Shown piece by piece: positions 6,821 to 59,205 of a DNA stretch of 64,000 nt (position 1 is the stretch's first letter; each line of letters begins with the position of its first letter). The notes below the pieces were generated by a model. The model searched no databases and was not told the origin of the DNA. It saw nothing but the letters and a program-made list of their open reading frames with translations. A program made the translations under genes and the position numbers. Source of the DNA: Thermobifida cellulosilytica TB100 (GTDB lineage Bacteria; Actinomycetota; Actinomycetes; Streptosporangiales; Streptosporangiaceae); assembly GCF_001517975.1 (NCBI RefSeq), contig NZ_KQ950182.1, positions 1 to 64,000 of the forward strand, read 5' to 3'.

Positions 6821-6827
6821 GACGGTG

Positions 6828-6910
6828 ACCACGCGGGGTGTCCCATGCGGGACTGAGATGGGCCGAGGGCCCGAACCCGTTGAACCTGATCTCGGTAATT
6901 CGAGCGGAGG
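6828..6910 (+). promoter_or_regulatory. TPP riboswitch (THI element)
   Basis: The conserved blocks of the thiamine pyrophosphate aptamer are present in order: GGGGTGTCCC, GGGACTGAGAT, GAACCCGTTGAACCTGAT and a terminal CTCGGTAATTCGAG hairpin. The last hairpin is followed directly by GCGGAGG, which is the ribosome site of tenA. Ligand binding would therefore be expected to hide the ribosome site and shut off translation when TPP is plentiful. There is no obvious terminator-type expression platform. Confidence 0.95.
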
Positions 6911-6914
6911 AACG

Positions 6915-7622
6915 GTGGGTGTACTCCCTGTTGCCCCCGGTGAGACCGGTTTCACCGCGGAGCTGGGCCGTCGGCACGCTGACCTGTTCGAGGCCTTCTA
7001 CGAGCACCCCTTTCTCAAGGGCCTGCGCGAGGGCAGCCTCGCCAGGGAGCAGGTGCTGCACTACGTCGGGCAGGACTACCAGTACCTGACCGCCTACGTC
7101 CGCTGTTACGGGCTGGGGCTGGCGCTCTCCCCGGACCGGGAGTGGATGCGGTTCTTCCACGACGGCGTCTCGGTCATCCTCGCCGAGGAGGGCCACGCGC
7201 ACGAGGCGCTGTGCGCGTACGCGGGGGTGTCCTACGAGGAGGCCCAGGCCGACCGGCTCGCGCCCAGTGCGCAGGCCTACATCAACCACATGACGGCCGC
7301 GGGCCACGACACGCTCGGCGTGCTGCTGGCCGCGCTGCTGCCGTGCCCGTGGACCTACCTGTGGGCCGCGGCGCGGTTCACCGGGGAGGCGCCCCTGGAC
7401 CCCGACCACCCCTTCCACGGCTGGTGGTCCTTCTACGCCGGGGCGTACGAGTCGGACAAGCTGGCCCGGACGCGGGAGCTGCTGGACCGGGTGGCCGCCG
7501 AGGCGGGGCCCGCCGAGCGGGAGCGGATGGAGCGCGCGTTCGTGACCAGTTGCCACTACGAGGTCCGGTTCTGGGAGATGGCCTGGTCCCTGGAGGACTG
7601 GACTCCGCCGGACGGCTCCTGA
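6915..7622 (+). CDS. tenA: aminopyrimidine aminohydrolase / thiaminase II (TenA)
   Basis: A 235-residue all-helical TenA-family protein. It carries the usual HPFLKGLREGSL, YVGQDYQYL, EEGHAHEAL and PCPWTYLWAAARF segments and a C-terminal FWEMAW. TenA hydrolyses base-degraded thiamine (amino-HMP) to HMP for salvage. The active-site Cys normally sits in the block that here reads LLPCPWTY. GTG 6915 is taken as the start because GGAGG ends 4 nt upstream and is part of the TPP riboswitch; the frame extends further up but across the riboswitch. It is a single gene, closed by a strong terminator, with no thiamine-synthesis gene next to it. Confidence 0.93.
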   Translation: MGVLPVAPGETGFTAELGRRHADLFEAFYEHPFLKGLREGSLAREQVLHYVGQDYQYLTAYVRCYGLGLALSPDREWMRFFHDGVSVILAEEGHAHEALCAYAGVSYEEAQADRLAPSAQAYINHMTAAGHDTLGVLLAALLPCPWTYLWAAARFTGEAPLDPDHPFHGWWSFYAGAYESDKLARTRELLDRVAAEAGPAERERMERAFVTSCHYEVRFWEMAWSLEDWTPPDGS

Positions 7623-9325: not shown

Positions 9326-10567
9326 CTACCGTTCGTCGCTCTCCGTGCCCAGGCCGAGGCCGTTGACGCACGGGTTGGAGGTCGCGTCGCGCCCCTCGAT
9401 CGCGTCGGAGGGGGTCGCGGACGGGGTCGGCTCCGGATGCTGGGGGCGGGGGGAGGGTTCCGCCGGGTAGGACGGGGTGGAGCTGATCGACGGGCTGGGC
9501 TCGGTCTGGGGCCGCCCGGTCTCCAGCAGCGCGTCGTCCACCGGTTCGTCCTCGTTGATGGCGCGGAACAGGCGCTCGGCCTTCTCCTCGTTCCAGACCA
9601 CCCGGTTGGGGTCCCACGGCGCGGGCCAGGACGGAACCGTGTAGAAGGTGATGTTCTGCGGCTTGACGTCGGACAGGGTGAACCCGATGGACAGCATGGT
9701 GTCCAGGGTCAGTTCCGCGTCGGTCGCGGTGTACTGGGTGACCGAGGTGAGCAGCGCGTCGAGCTTGGCGGGGTTGGCCAGGATCTGCTTGCTGAGCATC
9801 TGGGAGGCCAGCGCGCCGAGGAACATCTGCTGGCGGTCGATGCGGCCCAGGTCGCCGCCGTCGCCGATCTCGTAGCGGGCCCGGACGAAGGACAGCGACT
9901 GCTCCCCGTCGAGGACCTGGGTGCCCGGCTCCAGGTCGAGCTTGGAGCGCTCGTCGTGCATCGGCTCGGGGATGCACATCTCCACGCCGCCGATCGCGTC
10001 GACCATCTCCCGGAAGCCCACGAAGCTCACGTGGACGAAGTGGTCGATGCGGATCTGGGTGAGCGACTCGATCGTCTTGACCACGCACGGCGGCCCGCCG
10101 TGGAACAGCGCGGCGTTGATCATGCCGTAGTAGCCGTAGGTGCCCTCGGTCTCCCCGTAGGGTTCGCAGTCGGGCAGGTCGACCAGTGAGTCGCGGGGGA
10201 AGCTGACGACGATGACCCCGTTGTCGGGGGAGATGTGGGCCAGCAGCAGGGCGTCGGAGCGCTCGCCCACGAAGTCCCGGCCGCCGTAGGCGGCGTTGCC
10301 GCCCTTACGGCCGTCGGAGCCGATGAAGAGGATGTTGACGGCGTCGCTGATCTTCGGCGGGCGCTCGTCCTCGGGCAGGATGACGGCCAGGTCGTGTTGG
10401 ACCATGTTGGCGCGCAGCGACCGGTAGTAGGCGTACGCCGTGCCGAGGCAGGCGAGCAGGGAGACGGCCAGGCCCAGAGAGATCCACAGGATCACCCGTC
10501 GCTTGCGGCGGCGCGGCGGCGGGGCATCCGGGGAAGGGTCGGCAGGCTTGGAAGCGTCGTCGGACAT
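9326..10567 (-). CDS. LytR-CpsA-Psr (LCP) family glycopolymer transferase
   Basis: 413 residues from ATG 10567 (MSDDASKPADP). A short Pro-rich cytoplasmic tail and PPRRRKRR precede one membrane helix (about residues 29-52), after which comes the extracellular LCP domain with NILFIGSDGR, GERSDALLLAHIS, VVSFPRDSLV and the Arg/Asp-rich DGEQSLSFVRARY block that binds the polyprenyl pyrophosphate head group. LCP enzymes attach teichoic-acid-like or capsular glycopolymers to peptidoglycan. The last 80 residues are a Pro/Ser/Glu tail, probably wall-spanning. The frame continues upstream to 10813 through a tandem 21-bp repeat, but no ribosome site supports a longer form. Confidence 0.88.
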   Translation of the reverse strand: MSDDASKPADPSPDAPPPRRRKRRVILWISLGLAVSLLACLGTAYAYYRSLRANMVQHDLAVILPEDERPPKISDAVNILFIGSDGRKGGNAAYGGRDFVGERSDALLLAHISPDNGVIVVSFPRDSLVDLPDCEPYGETEGTYGYYGMINAALFHGGPPCVVKTIESLTQIRIDHFVHVSFVGFREMVDAIGGVEMCIPEPMHDERSKLDLEPGTQVLDGEQSLSFVRARYEIGDGGDLGRIDRQQMFLGALASQMLSKQILANPAKLDALLTSVTQYTATDAELTLDTMLSIGFTLSDVKPQNITFYTVPSWPAPWDPNRVVWNEEKAERLFRAINEDEPVDDALLETGRPQTEPSPSISSTPSYPAEPSPRPQHPEPTPSATPSDAIEGRDATSNPCVNGLGLGTESDER

Positions 10568-10878
10568 GAGGGCTTTCCGCGAAGGAGTAGGCGGACTCCG
10601 CGAGGGAGTCGGCACGCCAGGACACCGAGTGAAAAAAGGTGCAAAGGGTGATGAGGGGGCCGAGGATGATCCTATGAGATTCCTCATGGGGATCGCACGA
10701 CGAGGTGGCCCCAGGGGGCGGGCCTTGGCACGCCGTGGTATGCGGAAGAGTACCGTTGACTGTGGCGTAGGGTGAGTGGGAATCTCAGCGGTCAGGTCGT
10801 TACCGCTGTCCACCGCCCGGGTTCAGCGGGACGACCCAGAAGCCAAACAGCAACTCAGCGTGTGAACCGGACTACTGG
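10568..10878. other. 311-bp divergent region with a tandem 21-bp repeat
   Basis: TCCGCGAAGGAGTAGGC at 10576 is repeated with two changes at 10597, giving a 21-bp period just upstream of the LCP start. Nothing else is recognised. It separates the LCP gene from the plus-strand gene at 10879 and should hold both promoters. Confidence 0.5.
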
Positions 10879-11923: not shown

Positions 11924-12601
11924 TCATCCCTCCTGCGACTTCACCAGGGCGACGGCTTCGAGCTGGGACTTCACGTTGAGCTTGGCGAGGATCGACCGGA
12001 TCTGCGAGCGGACCGTGGCGATCGAGACGTAGGACTCCGCGGCGATCACCTTGGCGCGCTTGCCCTCCACCAGCGCGTCGAGCACCTGGCGCTCCCGCTT
12101 GGTGAGCTGGTTGAACATCTGGCTGGTGGAGCGCCGCTGGGCCTGTAGGGCGCGGTGCTCGGCGAGCAGGCTCTGCCGCTCCTTGGGGTCCATCATCGGC
12201 CGGCCCGCGAAACCGTCCAGGATGGCGTAGATCAGCTCCTCGAAGGGCACCGACTTGGACAGCCAGGCCCCGGCCCCGGCGGCGATCGCCTCGGCGATCC
12301 GCGGCCGCTCGGTGCTTCCGGTGACCAGCAGCACCTGCCAGCCGTCGCGGCTCAGGTTCCGGGCCAGCGACACCCCGTCCAGCGGGCGCCCTTCGGGGTC
12401 GGTGCCCAGGTCCAGGTCGAGCAGGACCAGGGACGGCTGGAGCTCGGCGGCCTGGGCGAGCACGTCCTGCGGGATCAGGGAGTGGGCGCGTACCGCGGGG
12501 ATGCCACGGCTGCGCAGCATCGTCTCGACGGCGGTGCTGAACAGTTCGTGGTCGTCGACGATGAATACCGACGGGGAAACCGGACGGTGAGGTCTCGGCA
12601 T
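11924..12601 (-). CDS. LuxR-type response regulator
   Basis: 225 residues. The receiver domain shows VFIVDDHELF (acidic pair), the phospho-acceptor Asp in LVLLDLDLG, LLVTGST and the Lys in AWLSKSVPF. The C-terminal LuxR helix-turn-helix is LTKRERQVLDALVEGKRAKV followed by SIATVRSQIRSILAKL. An extra basic linker (residues about 145-165, HRALQAQRRST) separates the domains. It lies 70 bp downstream of, and in line with, a membrane histidine kinase gene, so the two form a two-component system. Their position next to the SipW/TasA-like genes suggests that these may be among their targets; this is inference. Confidence 0.9.
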   Translation of the reverse strand: MPRPHRPVSPSVFIVDDHELFSTAVETMLRSRGIPAVRAHSLIPQDVLAQAAELQPSLVLLDLDLGTDPEGRPLDGVSLARNLSRDGWQVLLVTGSTERPRIAEAIAAGAGAWLSKSVPFEELIYAILDGFAGRPMMDPKERQSLLAEHRALQAQRRSTSQMFNQLTKRERQVLDALVEGKRAKVIAAESYVSIATVRSQIRSILAKLNVKSQLEAVALVKSQEG

Positions 12602-12671
12602 TGCCGCTCCCGATGCTCGTGGCGGTCGTGAATGGGGGGTTCGGAGGGGTGCGGCCGGTGGTCAGCGCTGG

Positions 12672-14138
12672 TCAGGGCTGTCCGGCGGGTCCCCCCTCTG
12701 GTCGTGACTTTACGGGCAGATCAATAAGAACAACGCATCCGGGACGTTCTGGATCATTTGCTTCTATTTGCAAACGTCCCCCGTATTTCTCGACCAGTTC
12801 CCGGCACACGGCCAGGCCGATGCCGTCGCCGATCGAGTCGCTGCCTTTGACGCCGTGCCGCATCACCTCCTCCTCCAGGCCGGGCGGGATGCCCGGACCG
12901 TCGTCCTGGACCCGCACCCGCACCCGGTCGCCGAGCCGGTGCGCCGTCACCCACACGTGCGCGCCGGGAGCGTGCCGCTCGCAGTTGGCGAGGATGTTGG
13001 TGACGACCTGCGCGACCGCGTCCTGGGGCATGGCCACGACCGGGTCCTGCTCGACCGTGAGGTCGATCAGGGTGCCGTTGCCGCGCCGGATCAGCACCAT
13101 CTGCTTCAGCAGCGGGCGCAGCCGGGTGCCCTCCTGCCGGTGCCGCTCCGGCTGCGGGGACAGCAGCGCCCGCATCCGGTTCAGCTCGGCCGAGAGCGCG
13201 GCGCGCAGGGCGGCGCGGTCGACGGTGCCCTCCGGGTCGTCCATGGCGAGCAACTGGGCCGCGCCGTCCACCCCGGCCAGGGCGTTGCGGAGTTCGTGCG
13301 CCTGCGTGGACAGCCGCCTGCGCGCCTCCACGGCCTCGGCCTCGGCCTCGGCGAGCCGCTCCCGGTCGAGGTGGAACCGCTGGTAGGTCCGGTAGGCCAC
13401 CTGGAGCACGGCCAGCAGGATCAGGGACGTGCCCACCACGCGGATCCCCGGCACCAGCAGCGGCGAGTACAGCAGCGGGTCGCCGTTCCAGAACCGGGGG
13501 GCGTGGCCCAGGGCGACGGCGAGCTGGCCGAAGCCGAGCCACACCAGCATGCGGTTGCGCCGCAGCACCCCGGTCACCAGCACCGTCAGGGCCACCTGCA
13601 ACCACAGCAGCGCGGTGCCGTAGTGCAGGAAGGGCGAGCGGATCACCTGGTAGGCGACCTCCGGGAAGGCCGCGGCGAGCGCCCCCGCGGCCAGCGAGGC
13701 CACCAGTGCCAGGAGCAGGCCGCGCAGTCCGGTGGACCCCGTGCGCAGCGGGCGTAGCGGCCAGGGGTGGGGGCGGTCGAAGGGGACCACCGTGAGCAGC
13801 AGCAGGACGATCGTCAGCAGGGTCCCGGTGTGCCGGACGGTGGCCACCACGATGGTGTCGACGGTGGCCGCGGCCAGCCCCGAGGCCGTGGTCGGGATGA
13901 CCACCATGCCGTAGAGCAGCATCGCGGCCGCGACCCGGCGCAGGGACCGCTGCTCGGAGAGCCGGGCGACCAGTTCGGCGGAGAAGCCGGCGGCCACCGC
14001 GGCGGCCGCGGCGAACATCGCCATGGCCGCCATCGCCCCGATCGTCAGGCGGAACTGGGCCTCCAGGGCGAGGAGAGTGAACGCGCTGCCGATGACCAGC
14101 GCCAGGAGCACGGCCGATTCCACGAGGAGTCTGCGCAC
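12672..14138 (-). CDS. membrane-bound sensor histidine kinase
   Basis: About 488 residues. The N-terminal half has roughly eight hydrophobic helices (MASE-like sensor, no large outside loop). It is followed by a coiled segment (DRERLAEAEAEAVEARRRL), an H-box-like AHELRNALAG with the phospho-accepting His, and an HATPase domain with NILANCERH (N-box), DDGPGIP (G1) and GDGIGLAVCRELV (G2). GTG 14138 was preferred because AAGGA lies 10 nt upstream; an in-frame GTG at 14156 lacks a ribosome site. It pairs with the LuxR-type regulator downstream and starts 47 bp after the SipW-like peptidase gene in the same direction. Confidence 0.88.
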   Translation of the reverse strand: MRRLLVESAVLLALVIGSAFTLLALEAQFRLTIGAMAAMAMFAAAAAVAAGFSAELVARLSEQRSLRRVAAAMLLYGMVVIPTTASGLAAATVDTIVVATVRHTGTLLTIVLLLLTVVPFDRPHPWPLRPLRTGSTGLRGLLLALVASLAAGALAAAFPEVAYQVIRSPFLHYGTALLWLQVALTVLVTGVLRRNRMLVWLGFGQLAVALGHAPRFWNGDPLLYSPLLVPGIRVVGTSLILLAVLQVAYRTYQRFHLDRERLAEAEAEAVEARRRLSTQAHELRNALAGVDGAAQLLAMDDPEGTVDRAALRAALSAELNRMRALLSPQPERHRQEGTRLRPLLKQMVLIRRGNGTLIDLTVEQDPVVAMPQDAVAQVVTNILANCERHAPGAHVWVTAHRLGDRVRVRVQDDGPGIPPGLEEEVMRHGVKGSDSIGDGIGLAVCRELVEKYGGRLQIEANDPERPGCVVLIDLPVKSRPEGGPAGQP

Positions 14139-14184
14139 GGATGGACCGTCCTTCACCGCGGGGACCGGGGCGCGACGCGGTTCG

Positions 14185-14889
14185 TCACGACGTGCCCCCT
14201 TCCCCTGTCCCGGGATGCGTCAACTGCTTCTTGTCGCTCTCGGACGGTTCGTCGCTGCCGAGCGCCACGCTAAGCAGCCAGATGCCGAAGACGAAGAGCA
14301 GACCGGCCAGTGCGTAGAGGAGGGTCGGCCCCTGGACCAGGGCCTGTTGGGCGTAGCCGAAGTAGGGGATGTGGTACCACAGCCGTCCCCGGACGGCGGA
14401 GGCGGGAACCGGGGGATCGTCGGGGACCGTGTTGGCGTCGCCCTGGGTGTGGAAGAGCAGGCCGTCGTCGGTCGTCTCGACGTCGATGACCCGGTGGGTC
14501 ACCAGGGGGACGGCCGCGGGGTCGGCGATCTCGGTCTGCGCGGGCGTGGCGTGGGTGAACGTGATGACGTCGCCCACCTCGATCTCGGCCGGGTCGACGG
14601 GACGGGCGATCACCACCGAGCCGACCGGGAGGGTGGGCTCCATGCTGCCGCTGAGCACGATCAGGGCCTGTGCTCCGGTGATGCGGGGCAGGAGCGCGAC
14701 GGACACGACGATCACCAGCGCGACGAGCACGAGGACCGCCACCGCGGTCTGGAAAAGCGCGGAGAGGAGGCGGAGGACGACGGAACGCCCCCGGCGGCGA
14801 GAGCCCGGCTCTTCTGCCACGTGGCCGTTCTCGGAGGATTCTCCGGAAGGCGGTGTTGTGCCGTCGAGCGGGCCGGGGCGGTTGTCCAT
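14185..14889 (-). CDS. sipW: SipW-like type I signal peptidase (S26B)
   Basis: 234 residues. One N-terminal membrane helix (about residues 40-70) leads into the catalytic Ser block (VLSGSMEPTLPVGS). The general base region reads LVTHRVI, with His where bacterial LepB enzymes have Lys; this Ser/His form is the ER/SipW type. GDVITFTH and the final WYHIPYFGYAQQAL block are also typical. A second hydrophobic helix lies near the C-terminus. In Bacillus, SipW cuts the signal peptides of TasA and TapA, and three proteins with such peptides are encoded 2-4 kb away. AAGGGGAG stands 5 nt before the ATG. Confidence 0.92.
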   Translation of the reverse strand: MDNRPGPLDGTTPPSGESSENGHVAEEPGSRRRGRSVVLRLLSALFQTAVAVLVLVALVIVVSVALLPRITGAQALIVLSGSMEPTLPVGSVVIARPVDPAEIEVGDVITFTHATPAQTEIADPAAVPLVTHRVIDVETTDDGLLFHTQGDANTVPDDPPVPASAVRGRLWYHIPYFGYAQQALVQGPTLLYALAGLLFVFGIWLLSVALGSDEPSESDKKQLTHPGTGEGGTS

Positions 14890-15114
14890 GCGATCTCCCC
14901 TTCGCGTTCGCGTGCCTCGCGGGCCTGGTCACCGTCGCGGGCCGCGCGGGCGCGCGGGACGGAAAGCCCGTTCCCGCACAACGCGCCGAACGGACGGAGG
15001 CAGCAGCACAAGATCGTGCTGCACGTCAGCGATTTTACGGAGAATTGATAAAGAACGGGATGGAACACGTGACTCAGAGTTTTCCCGGCATACCTCATTA
15101 GGCGTCAGGAAGCA
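14890..15114. other. 225-bp gap before the SipW-like gene
   Basis: No gene is supported. The stretch is comparatively AT-rich at 15020-15110 and probably contains a separate promoter for the minus-strand sipW-like gene. Confidence 0.4.
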
Positions 15115-15900
15115 TCAGCAATCGGCGGTCTGGTCCGCCGACGGTTGTTGTGTGCTTCCGCGCCCCGTCGCGAGGAAGAAGACCAGGCCCCCGCTCGCGA
15201 CCAACGCCACGGCCAGACCCACCAGCAGCATGATCCGCGCCCCGGTCAGCGCCAGGTCCGCGGAGGGGCCGCTGCCGACCGCGGTCGACCGCAGCTCCAC
15301 CCCGTCCTCCAGCACCACCGGCGCGGTGCCCGTGATCGCCTCGGCCCGCCAGACCAGCACGAAGTCCACCGAGTCGGTCTGCACCTCGTTGCCGGTGCCG
15401 AAAGGCAGGCTCAGGCCGACCACCACCTCGGCCTCGCCCCGGGCGGGGACGGTGATGATCTGGCCGCTGCCCGAGACGGCCTCGTTCAGCGGGGAGCTGA
15501 ACAGGCGGGTGTTGCCCGGGATGCCCAGCCGTAACTCCAGGTGGTCGCCCAGTTCGCCCTCGCCCTCGCAGGTGTCGTCGACGCGGGACTCGGAGCCGTT
15601 GCACCCGTTGTCGCTGTTGTGCAGGCTGTCCACCCGCAGACCGAGCGTCACCGGCTCCGGGCGCTCGTTGACCACGTTGACCAGCCAGGACTCGCGGTAT
15701 CCGGGGGCGATGTCCGACACGCTGAAGTCGTACAGGCCGCTCACGTCCACCTCTCGGTCGACCCGGAGCGTCCCTCCGGACCGGGGAGGCTGCTCGGCCA
15801 GCGCCGAGGTCCCCGAAGCCAGGAACAGGACGGGACACAACAGGGCCGCGGCGACCCGTGCGGTGGTCGACCGTGCGGTGTGGTGCTCACTCCTGAACAA
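15115..15900 (-). CDS. LALTG-anchored surface protein of the SipW/TasA locus
   Basis: 261 residues. A Sec signal peptide (about residues 1-36, hydrophobic VAAALLCPVLFLASGTSALA) is followed by a beta-rich domain with two adjacent Cys (NGCNG and DTCEG). Near the C-terminus come LALTG, a hydrophobic helix (ARIMLLVGLAVALVASGGLV) and a short tail, which is the layout of a sortase substrate; LAxTG is the motif used by class E sortases. The start is a TTG at 15900 that overlaps the previous stop by 14 bp, with GAGAGG upstream. The family is unknown, but the neighbours suggest a cap or anchor for TasA-like fibres. No sortase gene is in the window. Confidence 0.75.
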   Translation of the reverse strand: MFRSEHHTARSTTARVAAALLCPVLFLASGTSALAEQPPRSGGTLRVDREVDVSGLYDFSVSDIAPGYRESWLVNVVNERPEPVTLGLRVDSLHNSDNGCNGSESRVDDTCEGEGELGDHLELRLGIPGNTRLFSSPLNEAVSGSGQIITVPARGEAEVVVGLSLPFGTGNEVQTDSVDFVLVWRAEAITGTAPVVLEDGVELRSTAVGSGPSADLALTGARIMLLVGLAVALVASGGLVFFLATGRGSTQQPSADQTADC

Positions 15901-16360
15901 GGTGGTCGCCTCTCGGTTCTCGCACGGCGGGCGGGTCCGAGCCGAAGAGGGACGGGCCGCCGTGGGGGGAGCGGGGCGGACGGTCCTGGCCGTCCGGTCG
16001 GGGTGGACCGCTCGGGGGAGTCTGCTCCCCGGCCCCTCCCGGGGGAAGCTCCGGACCGGTGTCCGGCTCCGTCGGGGGTGCGGAGGGCGAGGGGGACGCC
16101 GCGGGGGGCGTCTGTGCGGGTGCCGACGGGGACGGGGAGGCAGACGGAGACGGGGAGACCGACGGGGCGAGCACCTCGAAGGGCGGGGTGGTGGCGCGCA
16201 CCGTGAAGGCGGCGCTCGTCCCCTCCAGGGGCAGGAAGGGCAGGACGACCGCGGCCGACACGCCGGCGAACACCGCGGCCAGGCCGAGGAGGCGGCCTGC
16301 CGCGGTCAGCGGACCCGGCAGCCGCGTCGCAGCCTCGACGTCGGAGTCAGCGCGGTTCAT
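15887..16360 (-). CDS. Pro/Ser-rich anchored protein with SipW-type N-terminus
   Basis: 157 residues from ATG 16360 (GAGGGG lies 4 nt upstream); longer frames lack a ribosome site. A hydrophobic segment (AAGRLLGLAAVFAGVSAAVV) is followed by GTSAAFTVRATTPPF, which resembles the TSAAFT/TQAAFT end of SipW-dependent signal peptides. The rest is a repetitive Pro/Ser linker (SPSPSASPSPSAP, then PTEPDTGPELPPGG). No folded domain can be seen. It is the first gene of the minus-strand set and overlaps the LALTG gene by 14 bp, implying cotranslation. It could be a short fibre anchor or a wall-spanning stalk. Confidence 0.65.
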   Translation of the reverse strand: MNRADSDVEAATRLPGPLTAAGRLLGLAAVFAGVSAAVVLPFLPLEGTSAAFTVRATTPPFEVLAPSVSPSPSASPSPSAPAQTPPAASPSPSAPPTEPDTGPELPPGGAGEQTPPSGPPRPDGQDRPPRSPHGGPSLFGSDPPAVREPRGDHLVQE

Positions 16361-16787
16361 CAACCCCTCGATCCTCGAACCGGGGTGCGTCGCGGGCTGT
16401 TTCCGGCGGTCCGGCCCACGACCACGGATGTCACCGACCAGACTGCCCAAGACGGAGAGACGGCTCATCGCCAAAAAGGGGGAAACGACTTCGTTCACTT
16501 TGGGGATGACCGCGGACCCGCCGAATCGGCAGAGTCTCTACACAGCAGAACCGGAGAGTTCGGCGGCGGGGCGCTTCCGCAGCGCCGTGCGGAGGCACTC
16601 CGGGCAGCCGGTCCGCGCCACATCCCCCTGACGGTCCCGCTGCGCCGCTTCGGCATCCCCGGCGCGCAACGGGACGGTTCGGCGCACGGCCTGCCCCCGG
16701 CGCACCCTCGGGGCCGCCGCCTCCGGTTCTGCTGCCCCTCGCGAACTCCCCCGGCTTCGCCGATGCGGCGTGAAAGGAAGGGCCGTT
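16361..16787. other. 427-bp divergent control region of the fibre locus
   Basis: This region lies between the minus-strand anchor/peptidase genes and the plus-strand TasA-like genes. No gene is supported. It contains the run AAAAAGGGGGAAACG at 16473-16487, likely inside a promoter, but I see no clear -35/-10 pair or operator. It is the logical place to look for binding by the LuxR-type regulator at 11924-12601. Confidence 0.5.
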
Positions 16788-17414
16788 GTGGCCACCAGGA
16801 TGAGCAAGAGGAAAAGACTGGTCGCGGGCTTGGGCGCGGCGGCGCTGATCGGTGCCGCGGTGGCGATCACCGGCGGCACCTACGCCTACTTCACCGACAG
16901 CGCGCAGACCGCCGAGCAGGCGATCACCGCCGGTGACCTGGAGGTCCTCGTCGACCAGTCCGGCCAGGGGGTGTCGAACCGCCCGGTCAACGTCACCAAC
17001 GCCGCCCCCGGCGAGGTCTACGTCGAGGACCTGACCTTTCCCCACATCGGCCACAAGTGGTACCGGCTGAAGGTCACCAACGCCGGAAGCATCGACGGCG
17101 AGATCAGCTCCCTGGAGATCGTCGACCTGACCGGCAGCACCCCGAACCTGGCCGACCGGTTGCAGATCCGCGCCGTCGTCAAACAGCTCGACTTCGAGCC
17201 CGGCTCCTTCGGCAACCCCGGCTTCGAGCCGCTGGACAGCGGCACGCTGACCAACCTCCCCGGGATCAAGCTGGTGCCCGCGGGCCACTCCGTCTACATC
17301 TACTTCCAGATCGAATGGCCCAACGGCAGCCCGGAGGAGGACAACCCGTACATGAACGCGACGACCTCCTTCAAGTTCCGGGTCAACCTGGACCAGGTCA
17401 ACCAGGGGAACTAG
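16788..17414 (+). CDS. TasA/camelysin-like fibre protein 1 (SipW-dependent signal)
   Basis: 208 residues from GTG 16788, which has GGAAGG exactly 6 nt upstream. The N-terminus is MATRMSKRKRLVAGLGAAAL, a hydrophobic helix, then GGTYAYFTDSAQTAEQAITA: the hallmark of SipW-dependent signal peptides in TasA and camelysin. ITAGDLEVLVD and the KWYRLKVTNAGSIDGEISSL block are typical of the immunoglobulin-like TasA fold. No Cys is present. It is the first of three tandem relatives, the others starting at 17487 and 18082. Such proteins polymerise into extracellular fibres in Bacillus; the same role here is inferred. Confidence 0.88.
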   Translation: MATRMSKRKRLVAGLGAAALIGAAVAITGGTYAYFTDSAQTAEQAITAGDLEVLVDQSGQGVSNRPVNVTNAAPGEVYVEDLTFPHIGHKWYRLKVTNAGSIDGEISSLEIVDLTGSTPNLADRLQIRAVVKQLDFEPGSFGNPGFEPLDSGTLTNLPGIKLVPAGHSVYIYFQIEWPNGSPEEDNPYMNATTSFKFRVNLDQVNQGN

Positions 17415-17424
17415 CCGTGGCGCG

Positions 17425-17451
17425 CCCGCACCGGAAGGGAGCCGGTGCGGG
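17425..17451 (+). terminator. hairpin between fibre genes 1 and 2
   Basis: Perfect 10-bp stem CCCGCACCGG/CCGGTGCGGG with a 7-nt loop, 10 bp after the first TasA-like stop and without a T-run. It may be a partial terminator or an mRNA 3'-end stabiliser that lets gene 1 be expressed above genes 2 and 3. Confidence 0.5.
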
Positions 17452-17486
17452 GCGGTCGCAGGAATCCGGGGAGATGAGGCGCGAGC

Positions 17487-18071
17487 ATGAGGAAGAGGAC
17501 CGCTCTGGCCCTGGGAGTCGCCACGGCCGGCGCGGCGCTGCTGTTGACCGTCGGCGGTACCTACGCCTACTTCTCCGCGAGTGCGGTCTCCGAGCCCGGC
17601 CAGATCACCGCGGGCGACCTCACGGTCGAGGTGGACGAGCGCAGTCCGAACGGGAGCAGCGGCCTGGTCGGCCTCGACGGGGCCGCACCGGGGGGACGCT
17701 GGCCGGAGTCCTCCACCGAGTCCTACACCCTGGTCATCACCAACACCGGTTCGCTTCCCGCGCTGATCGACTCCATCGACGTGGTGGTCACCAGCGAGGG
17801 ACGGCCGGACCTCAGCGAGGCCCTGGAGATCAGGTACAGCCTCGTCTCCGGCGACCACGGACCGAACTGGTCCCAGGGCAGCGGCTGGGTCGGACTGGAC
17901 CCGGGGCCGGTGCTCGACCGCCTGCCCCGGCGGCCCGCCCCGATCCGGCCGGGCCGGTCCAGCGCCCTCCACTTCCAGCTCCGGTGGCCCGACGGCGCGC
18001 CCGAGTACGACAATCTCTTCCAGGGAGCCGGGACCGAGTTCATGTTCGACATCACTCTCGGCCAGGCGTGA
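17487..18071 (+). CDS. TasA/camelysin-like fibre protein 2
   Basis: 194 residues. The signal peptide is MRKRTALALGVATAGAALLL followed by GGTYAYFSASAVSEPGQITA, matching the SipW-dependent pattern of gene 1. The mature part begins with ITAGDLTVEVDE and contains ESYTLVITNTGSLPALIDSI, the repeated Ig-like block of the family. There are no Cys residues. GGGGAGATGAGG lies upstream of the ATG. The 73-bp gap after gene 1 holds a hairpin, and gene 3 starts 10 bp after this stop. The relative amounts of the three products are unknown. Confidence 0.87.
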   Translation: MRKRTALALGVATAGAALLLTVGGTYAYFSASAVSEPGQITAGDLTVEVDERSPNGSSGLVGLDGAAPGGRWPESSTESYTLVITNTGSLPALIDSIDVVVTSEGRPDLSEALEIRYSLVSGDHGPNWSQGSGWVGLDPGPVLDRLPRRPAPIRPGRSSALHFQLRWPDGAPEYDNLFQGAGTEFMFDITLGQA

Positions 18072-18081
18072 CAGGGGGCGG

Positions 18082-18681
18082 ATGAAGAGGACGAGGCTCG
18101 GCGGACCCGCGTTGGCGGCGGCCAGCGTCGCGGCCGCCGCGGCAGCGGTGTGCGGGGTCCTGGTGACCACTCAGGCGGCGTTCACCGCGCGGACCGCCAC
18201 CGAGGCGCTGCCGGTCTCGGCGGGGCGCCTCGACGTCGCGCTCACCACCTCGCTGAGCGGGGCGGGCCCGGTCCGGGTCGACTTCTCCGAGGCGGGGCCG
18301 GACCTGATGTGGCCGGAGGAGGGCGCGTTCACGGTGTCGCTGCGCAACACCGGGGACCTGGACGGGAGGATCTCCGCCCTGGAGACGGTGGAGGTCGTCG
18401 ACGGGGGGACCGCCGGCTCCGGGGCGCTGAGCCGGGCGCTGGAGGTGGCGGTCAGCACCGATCCCGGGCAGGACTGGCACGACCCGGCGCTGCGGTGGGA
18501 GCCGGTCGCCGACCAGGCGGCTCCCGAGGGCCGGGTCGTCGCCTCCGACCTGGGGAGCCTGCCCGTGGGGCAGACCCGCACCGTCCATCTCAGACTGCGT
18601 TTCACCGGAGGGGAGGAAACCGCCTCCACCGGGGCGACCGTCTCGTTCCGACTGGCCGCCACGGTGACCCAGGCGCACTGA
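18082..18681 (+). CDS. TasA/camelysin-like fibre protein 3 (divergent)
   Basis: 199 residues. The N-terminus MKRTRLGGPALAAASVAAAA and TTQAAFTARTATEALPVSAG has the QAAFTA variant of the SipW-type signal; the mature part starts VSAGRLDVALT, equivalent to ITAGDLxVxVD. It shares the FTVSLRNTGDLDGRISALET block with the other two. It is the most divergent of the three and may play the minor-subunit or tip role that TapA plays in Bacillus; that is speculation from order and divergence. The start codon is 10 bp after the previous stop (GGGGGCGG upstream), so genes 2 and 3 are translationally linked. Confidence 0.8.
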   Translation: MKRTRLGGPALAAASVAAAAAAVCGVLVTTQAAFTARTATEALPVSAGRLDVALTTSLSGAGPVRVDFSEAGPDLMWPEEGAFTVSLRNTGDLDGRISALETVEVVDGGTAGSGALSRALEVAVSTDPGQDWHDPALRWEPVADQAAPEGRVVASDLGSLPVGQTRTVHLRLRFTGGEETASTGATVSFRLAATVTQAH

Positions 18682-59116: not shown

Positions 59117-59205
59117 CGGAGGATCGGGGATTTGAACCCCGGAAGGGCGTGAACCCTAACCGCATTAGCAGTGCGGCGCCATAGACCGGACTAGGCGAAT
59201 CCTCC
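59117..59205 (-). tRNA. tRNA-Ser (GCT)
   Basis: 89 nt on the minus strand. The acceptor stem GGAGGAT pairs with ATCCTCC plus discriminator G, the anticodon stem CCGCA/TGCGG encloses CTGCTAA (anticodon GCT), there is a long variable arm, and the T-arm has GGTTCAAATCC. The long variable arm is as expected for serine. CCA is not encoded. Confidence 0.95.

Follow-up and report, generated by a model that had tools for sequence, protein, structure and literature searches.

Among the known systems nearest to the one considered here are the SipW-dependent fibres of Bacillus and Clostridium. In Bacillus subtilis, the donor strand of TasA is formed by residues 28-38 (PMC9674648), the inter-subunit pocket consists of F29, P62, F200 and Q232, and TapA cut to residues 44-57 still supports biofilm (PMC10151520). 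In Clostridium perfringens, the sipW operon carries a dedicated two-component system on which its expression depends (PMC7395162). Published descriptions of TasA-type fibres in both genera have them assemble independently of sortase and mention no covalent attachment to the wall. Here, we analyzed an eight-gene block (positions 11924-18681) in the first 64,000 nucleotides of contig NZ_KQ950182.1 (the window) from the 4.43-Mb genome of Thermobifida cellulosilytica TB100, a heat-loving soil bacterium. The block consists of two divergent gene sets: on the minus strand a Pro-rich protein (ProR), an LALTG protein, a SipW-type signal peptidase, a histidine kinase and a response regulator, and on the plus strand the proteins T1, T2 and T3, each in that order. 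Because the ProR and LALTG genes share 14 bp and only 10 bp lie between T2 and T3, both sets look like operons.

The best explanation of this block, which we favor with moderate confidence, is that it encodes a SipW-dependent, TasA-type surface filament, built by donor-strand exchange and having a wall-anchored end. The first-pass annotation had proposed a TasA/SipW-type locus containing three textbook SipW signals, a Ser/His signal peptidase, a Pro-rich protein with a similar N-terminus, a LuxR-type two-component system and the LALTG protein as an added anchor. All of these features are present where it placed them. The reading as a TasA/SipW-type locus was supported by the results below, as were the co-occurrence of its parts in related genomes and a plausible wall link, while the assignments of the signals and the anchor had to be amended.

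The N-terminal motifs of T1, T2 and T3 are ..GGTYAYFTDSA, ..GGTYAYFSASA and ..TTQAAFTARTA, respectively. T1 and T2 passed the curated signal models TIGR04088 (scores of 33.4 and 38.1; cut-off 19) and PF12389 (32.1 and 29.6; cut-off 22.5). T3 was below detection in both, and ProR, with the SipW-like motif ..TSAAFTVRA, matched no curated signal model, so the locus has two textbook and two degenerate signals. T1-T3 scored far below the TIGR04089 cut-off and reached at most 11.7 bits with the TasA orthology model NF046066 (cut-off 450); judged by sequence, they are relatives of TasA and not TasA itself. They clearly differ from one another, the other subunits being 22-40% identical to T1, and none ends in a sorting signal. 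T1 is the best conserved of the three (87-89% identity between Thermobifida species) and is the probable major subunit. The peptidase scored 102.1 bits with TIGR02228 (cut-off 51.85) and is 72% identical to T. fusca SipW. Its S82, H132 and D151 are invariant in the SipW alignment, as in an endoplasmic reticulum-type Ser/His(/Asp) signal peptidase. It did not reach the Bacillus SipW equivalog model NF046067 (82.3 bits vs a cut-off of 190), and its assignment from these profiles is that of a SipW-like enzyme.

Next to the signals, the evidence for donor-strand exchange comes from the residues of the TasA interface, with TasA positions verified against the 8aur entry. Equivalents of TasA F29, P62 and Q232 are invariant in 12 of 12 T1-T3 sequences, and the position matching F200 is aromatic or similar. 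The full-length alignment of T1 with TasA gave a z-score of 3.9 against shuffles, with the four pocket positions in register, and T3, which has the same 13-residue donor segment and the three invariant residues, could be aligned with T1 and T2. In T1-T3, as in most SipW-signal proteins from other actinomycetes, the aromatic residue and the [AS]G-x-L motif lie at a distance of 13; a value of 8, obtained for some proteins, arose where the pattern caught an earlier GG or AG and is not a true spacing. In these alignments, the donor-strand interface residues of TasA are retained in T1-T3. Sequence searches of the PDB with T1, A1 and A2 returned no TasA, which was found by fold search only; in the search with T1, the TasA fibre 8aur had the best TM-score among the matches listed.

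The LALTG protein differs from these subunits at both ends. All seven orthologues end in an L[AP]x[TS]G sorting signal, a hydrophobic stretch and a basic tail, and in all seven a Sec-type signal site lies ~4-8 residues before the first strand motif, which leaves no donor segment. Its model matched the TasA monomers 5of2/5of1 in Foldseek (probability 1.00, E 9e-5 to 4e-4). A hidden Markov model (HMM) built from sipW-adjacent LPxTG proteins of other actinomycetes, searched against all open reading frames (ORFs) of eight loci, ranked the seven LALTG proteins first, followed by T2 and T1. Conversely, the LALTG HMM returned the LPxTG protein of locus L173 (2e-10) and, next in rank, that locus's SipW-signal subunit (2e-4); these E-values come from small local databases, where the ranks count and not the values. 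Cross-hits in both directions suggest that the anchor domain and the subunits share one domain family. In L173 (genome G375), the SipW-signal subunit and its anchored partner share a Cys-containing insert that is also found in the Thermobifida LALTG protein, and this locus provides the clearest link between subunit and anchor. The protein named in the first-pass annotation as an added anchor does have a conserved sorting signal, and the genome encodes a class E sortase, but its model and profiles suggest that it is probably a donor-less, TasA-fold subunit in its own right and not just an anchor. It may represent an acceptor-only, wall-anchored subunit.

The reverse design is suggested by ProR, whose predicted mature form is FTVRATTPPFEVL, a 13-residue donor-like strand, followed by a Pro/Ser-rich tail. 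Across seven species the strand block is more conserved than the tail (mean of 0.82 vs 0.51). No TapA-type Ig-like disulfide domain follows the strand, and no sequence match between ProR and TapA was found in the libraries searched. The activity of TapA residues 44-57 makes a strand-only initiator credible, and by this analogy ProR may be a TapA-like initiator or cap that resembles TapA in mode of action only.

Several results weigh against the interpretation of T1-T3 and the LALTG protein as TasA-type subunits. The PF12389 matches cover only the signal and first strands (profile positions 4-69 and 5-49 of 196), and T2 and T3 align with TasA more weakly than T1 does (z-scores of 2.7 and 1.3). 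The T1 model has a predicted local distance difference test (pLDDT) score of 72, and 8aur was ranked ninth in its fold search, with an E-value of 0.028. For the LALTG protein, model confidence was low (pLDDT 64), the pairwise alignment with TasA was not significant (z-score of -0.4) and there is no equivalent of Q232. Alignment by hhalign of the T or LALTG profiles with the single TasA sequence was also not significant, despite which the last strand was placed in register.

The eight-gene locus is conserved beyond this strain. The first-pass annotation had set co-occurrence in related genomes as a test, and the identical eight-gene order was found in seven genomes of four genera: this genome, three other Thermobifida, Actinorugispora endophytica, Nocardiopsis ansamitocini and genome G026. 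All 7 of these loci also share a conserved 46-bp element in the region that separates the operons, within which no reading frame is kept. This conservation of gene order and element indicates that the locus is more than a chance assembly, and we regard it as real and coherent. Searching the family (343 genomes) at E<=1e-6 for T1 and E<=1e-50 for the kinase gave exactly the same eight carriers. In the eighth of them, G108, the locus is reduced (L081:4683-8416) to the regulator, the kinase and a single T1-like protein that bears a SipW-type signal; the conserved element recurs in part at position 7543 of this locus, and a SipW search of the G108 genome gave no match. In a quick rpoB tree of 28 genomes, the eight carriers were grouped with 98% support in the Shimodaira-Hasegawa-like approximate likelihood ratio test, with a single non-carrier inside. 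Shared descent and loss are therefore enough to explain the co-occurrence of T1 and the kinase, and the phyletic match, being nearly that of one clade, counts little as independent evidence.

The kinase contains a HATPase_c domain and the regulator Response_reg and GerE domains. The 46-bp element is a candidate site for this regulator; no second copy within three mismatches was found in the T. cellulosilytica genome. An AACGA-N2-TCGTT dyad within the element was considered as the operator and rejected, as some of the species do not conserve it.

SipW loci were also found outside this clade. SipW-type peptidases occurred in 74 of 395 sampled Actinomycete genomes (39 of 137 genera). A neighborhood search, as the first-pass annotation had proposed, showed that in 17 of ~38 other loci with a strong SipW match the gene immediately following sipW encodes an LPxTG/LAxTG protein with a Sec signal and no donor strand; this count leaves out pattern matches at L152, L158 and L159 that were judged false and includes L177 by hand. 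Genuine sorting signals elsewhere in those ~38 stretches were few, as judged by eye, and among weaker SipW loci 0 of 16 had such a partner. SipW and the donor-less partner are fused in one ORF in two loci (L169:4382-6202 and L177:5009-6205, both plus strand), a natural fusion that links the peptidase with the anchored protein. In the four sipW-adjacent LPxTG proteins that were scanned, Pfam and NCBIfam recognized the anchor motif only. Loci combining SipW, SipW-signal proteins and LPxTG partners are thus widespread in Actinomycetes. At L112:3113-8530 (plus strand), a 1805-residue open frame with a T-like domain near its C-terminus adjoins sipW.

Taking these results together, we propose the following mechanism. 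Cleavage of T1, T2, T3 and ProR by SipW, at the conserved Phe or immediately ahead of it, would leave a free 13-residue strand at each N-terminus. T1, together with T2 and T3, would polymerize as the strand of one subunit enters the groove of its neighbor. ProR, having a strand and no domain, might fill the open groove at one end and start or cap the chain as TapA does, and the LALTG protein, having a domain and no strand, might take up the free strand at the opposite end. A sortase, probably that of class E, would link the LALTG protein to peptidoglycan. The kinase and regulator would control both operons via the intergenic element. Polymerization, chain direction, the roles of ProR and the LALTG protein, anchoring and regulation are all parts of this model that we infer. 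More broadly, and more tentatively, it is quite possible that Actinomycetes have SipW-made donor-strand filaments covalently rooted in the wall via a donor-less, TasA-fold subunit with a sortase signal, in which case the Thermobifida locus, with a regulator of its own, would hold all three kinds of part: donor only, donor plus acceptor, and acceptor only.

Three distinct subunits, each kept in all complete loci with 22-40% identity to T1, could also be expected if T1, T2 and T3 occupied fixed positions on the anchored LALTG protein in short hetero-oligomeric surface complexes, forming a defined stalk for adhesion or sensing, and donor-strand pairing could be pair-specific. We consider this unlikely: conservation is far higher in T1 than in T2 or T3, and T1 retains the pocket through which TasA self-assembles, a pattern that a homopolymer should show; moreover, TasA/CalY heterofilaments of Bacillus cereus also use several camelysins (PMC13082335).

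The wall link of the filament is likewise open to another explanation, in which a TasA-like matrix is secreted without anchoring, the LALTG sorting signal is a mere membrane tail and fibres are shed as is BsaA of C. perfringens. BsaA forms polymers that are mostly extracellular and do not require the neighboring sortase gene (PMC7395162), neither the C. perfringens nor the B. cereus system depends on sortase (PMC7395162, PMC13082335), and there is no sortase gene within the Thermobifida fibre locus. However, the sorting signal, hydrophobic stretch and basic tail are kept not only in the seven LALTG proteins but also in the 17 sipW-adjacent proteins of other actinomycetes, and the genome encodes sortases of class E (178.6 bits vs a cut-off of 160) and class F above cut-off, plus one E-like enzyme below it. 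We judge this alternative to be less probable still than the hetero-oligomeric complexes, and a wall link of the locus to be plausible from its genes. A class C sortase-polymerized pilus would have LPxTG signals on its major subunits and a clustered class C sortase gene, and the locus has neither. Further proteins with sorting motifs are an LATTG-anchored protein (L084:685-1554, minus strand) ~3 kb from the class E sortase gene and, at ~1131 kb of C1 in the same genome, a chaplin-like protein that combines three ChpA-C repeats with a sorting signal, LPVTG (L087:2981-3799, minus strand).

Finally, the name of PF12389, Peptidase_M73 (camelysin metallo-endopeptidase), might suggest that T1-T3 are metalloproteases and not structural proteins, which is highly improbable and was rejected, given that T1-T3 have no HExxH motif, that the match is confined to the signal and first strands and that the family includes structural TasA.

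Table. Features of the Thermobifida fibre locus (window coordinates).
Feature	Position	Strand	Evidence
T1, TasA-like subunit, SipW-type signal (GGTYAYF), probable major subunit	16788..17414	+	TIGR04088, PF12389
T2, second TasA-like subunit, SipW-type signal (GGTYAYF)	17487..18071	+	TIGR04088, PF12389; syntenic orthologues
T3, third TasA-like subunit, degenerate SipW-type signal (TTQAAF)	18082..18681	+	alignment with T1/T2
ProR (Pro-rich), SipW-like signal (TSAAF), donor-like strand FTVRATTPPFEVL, Pro/Ser-rich tail	15887..16360	-	
LALTG protein with Sec signal, donor-less TasA-like domain, L[AP]x[TS]G and membrane helix	15115..15900	-	Foldseek, HMMs, seven-orthologue alignment
SipW-like signal peptidase, S26B type, Ser82/His132/Asp151	14185..14889	-	TIGR02228
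Membrane histidine kinase	12672..14156	-	HATPase_c; phyletic pattern same as T1
LuxR/NarL-type response regulator	11924..12601	-	Response_reg and GerE; syntenic in all carriers
46-bp conserved non-coding element, candidate regulator/promoter site	16466..16511	.	kept in 7/7 loci
Second conserved block (GGCAGAGT..CAGCAG), adjoins 46-bp element	16526..16555	.	alignment of seven intergenic regions

The T1 ORF opens with a GTG at 16770, and the ortholog alignment favors the GTG at 16788; this codon and the ATG at 16360 are the likely true starts of T1 and ProR. An LCP family glycopolymer transferase gene lies at 9326-10813 (minus strand) of the window, and an LCP gene is found near the fibre locus, on either side, in all carriers, including the reduced locus of G108. 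The window also contains a thiamine pyrophosphate (TPP) riboswitch at 6824-6930 (plus strand) and two tRNA genes at 2698-2770 and 59117-59205 (both minus strand), as identified with Rfam.

To the first-pass annotation, the locus looked like a separate, wall-linked version not known to be described in filamentous actinomycetes. We found no published account of an anchored TasA/SipW variant in actinomycetes in the open-access library covered, in which searches for Thermobifida with TasA, or camelysin with SipW and LPXTG, gave nothing relevant. Its separateness must be qualified, as SipW/LPxTG loci are widespread and the two-component system has a precedent in C. perfringens; the wall link itself is better founded and more widespread than first thought. 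If the model is correct, an acceptor-only TasA-fold anchor travelling with SipW across Actinomycetes would provide a defined attachment end, the donor-only and acceptor-only pair would make the direction of assembly genetically testable, and a function would be suggested for many unnamed actinobacterial 'alternate-type signal peptide' proteins.

Compared with known systems, the Thermobifida locus shares with B. subtilis tapA-sipW-tasA a SipW-type peptidase, Phe-headed donor-strand subunits, the F29/P62/Q232 pocket (PMC9674648, PMC10151520) and a minor protein, TapA or ProR, with an N-terminal strand as its likely active part. It differs in its three subunits, its wall-anchored, donor-less TasA-like protein, its own kinase and regulator, and a ProR without the folded domain of TapA. 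The B. cereus sipW-tasA/calY-capP system likewise has more than one camelysin-type subunit and an accessory protein, but it is described by its authors as sortase-independent, and no LPxTG partner is reported (PMC13082335). The sipW-bsaABCRSD operon of C. perfringens also has its own two-component system and, in addition, a sortase gene nearby; however, this sortase is not needed for polymers or pellicle, BsaA has no LPxTG signal and no donor-less anchored partner is described (PMC7395162). Other actinobacterial SipW-signal proteins (TIGR04088/TIGR04089) have the same signal class and 13-residue donor spacing, with donor-less LPxTG partners in other loci, whereas the divergent eight-gene layout with kinase and regulator was not observed outside this clade. 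In filamentous actinomycetes, substrates of class E sortases, such as the SrtE proteins of Actinoplanes (PMC13251363), resemble the LALTG protein in having an LAxTG-type signal and a class E sortase in the genome; unlike them, the LALTG protein carries an anchored domain that is TasA-like and tied to SipW.

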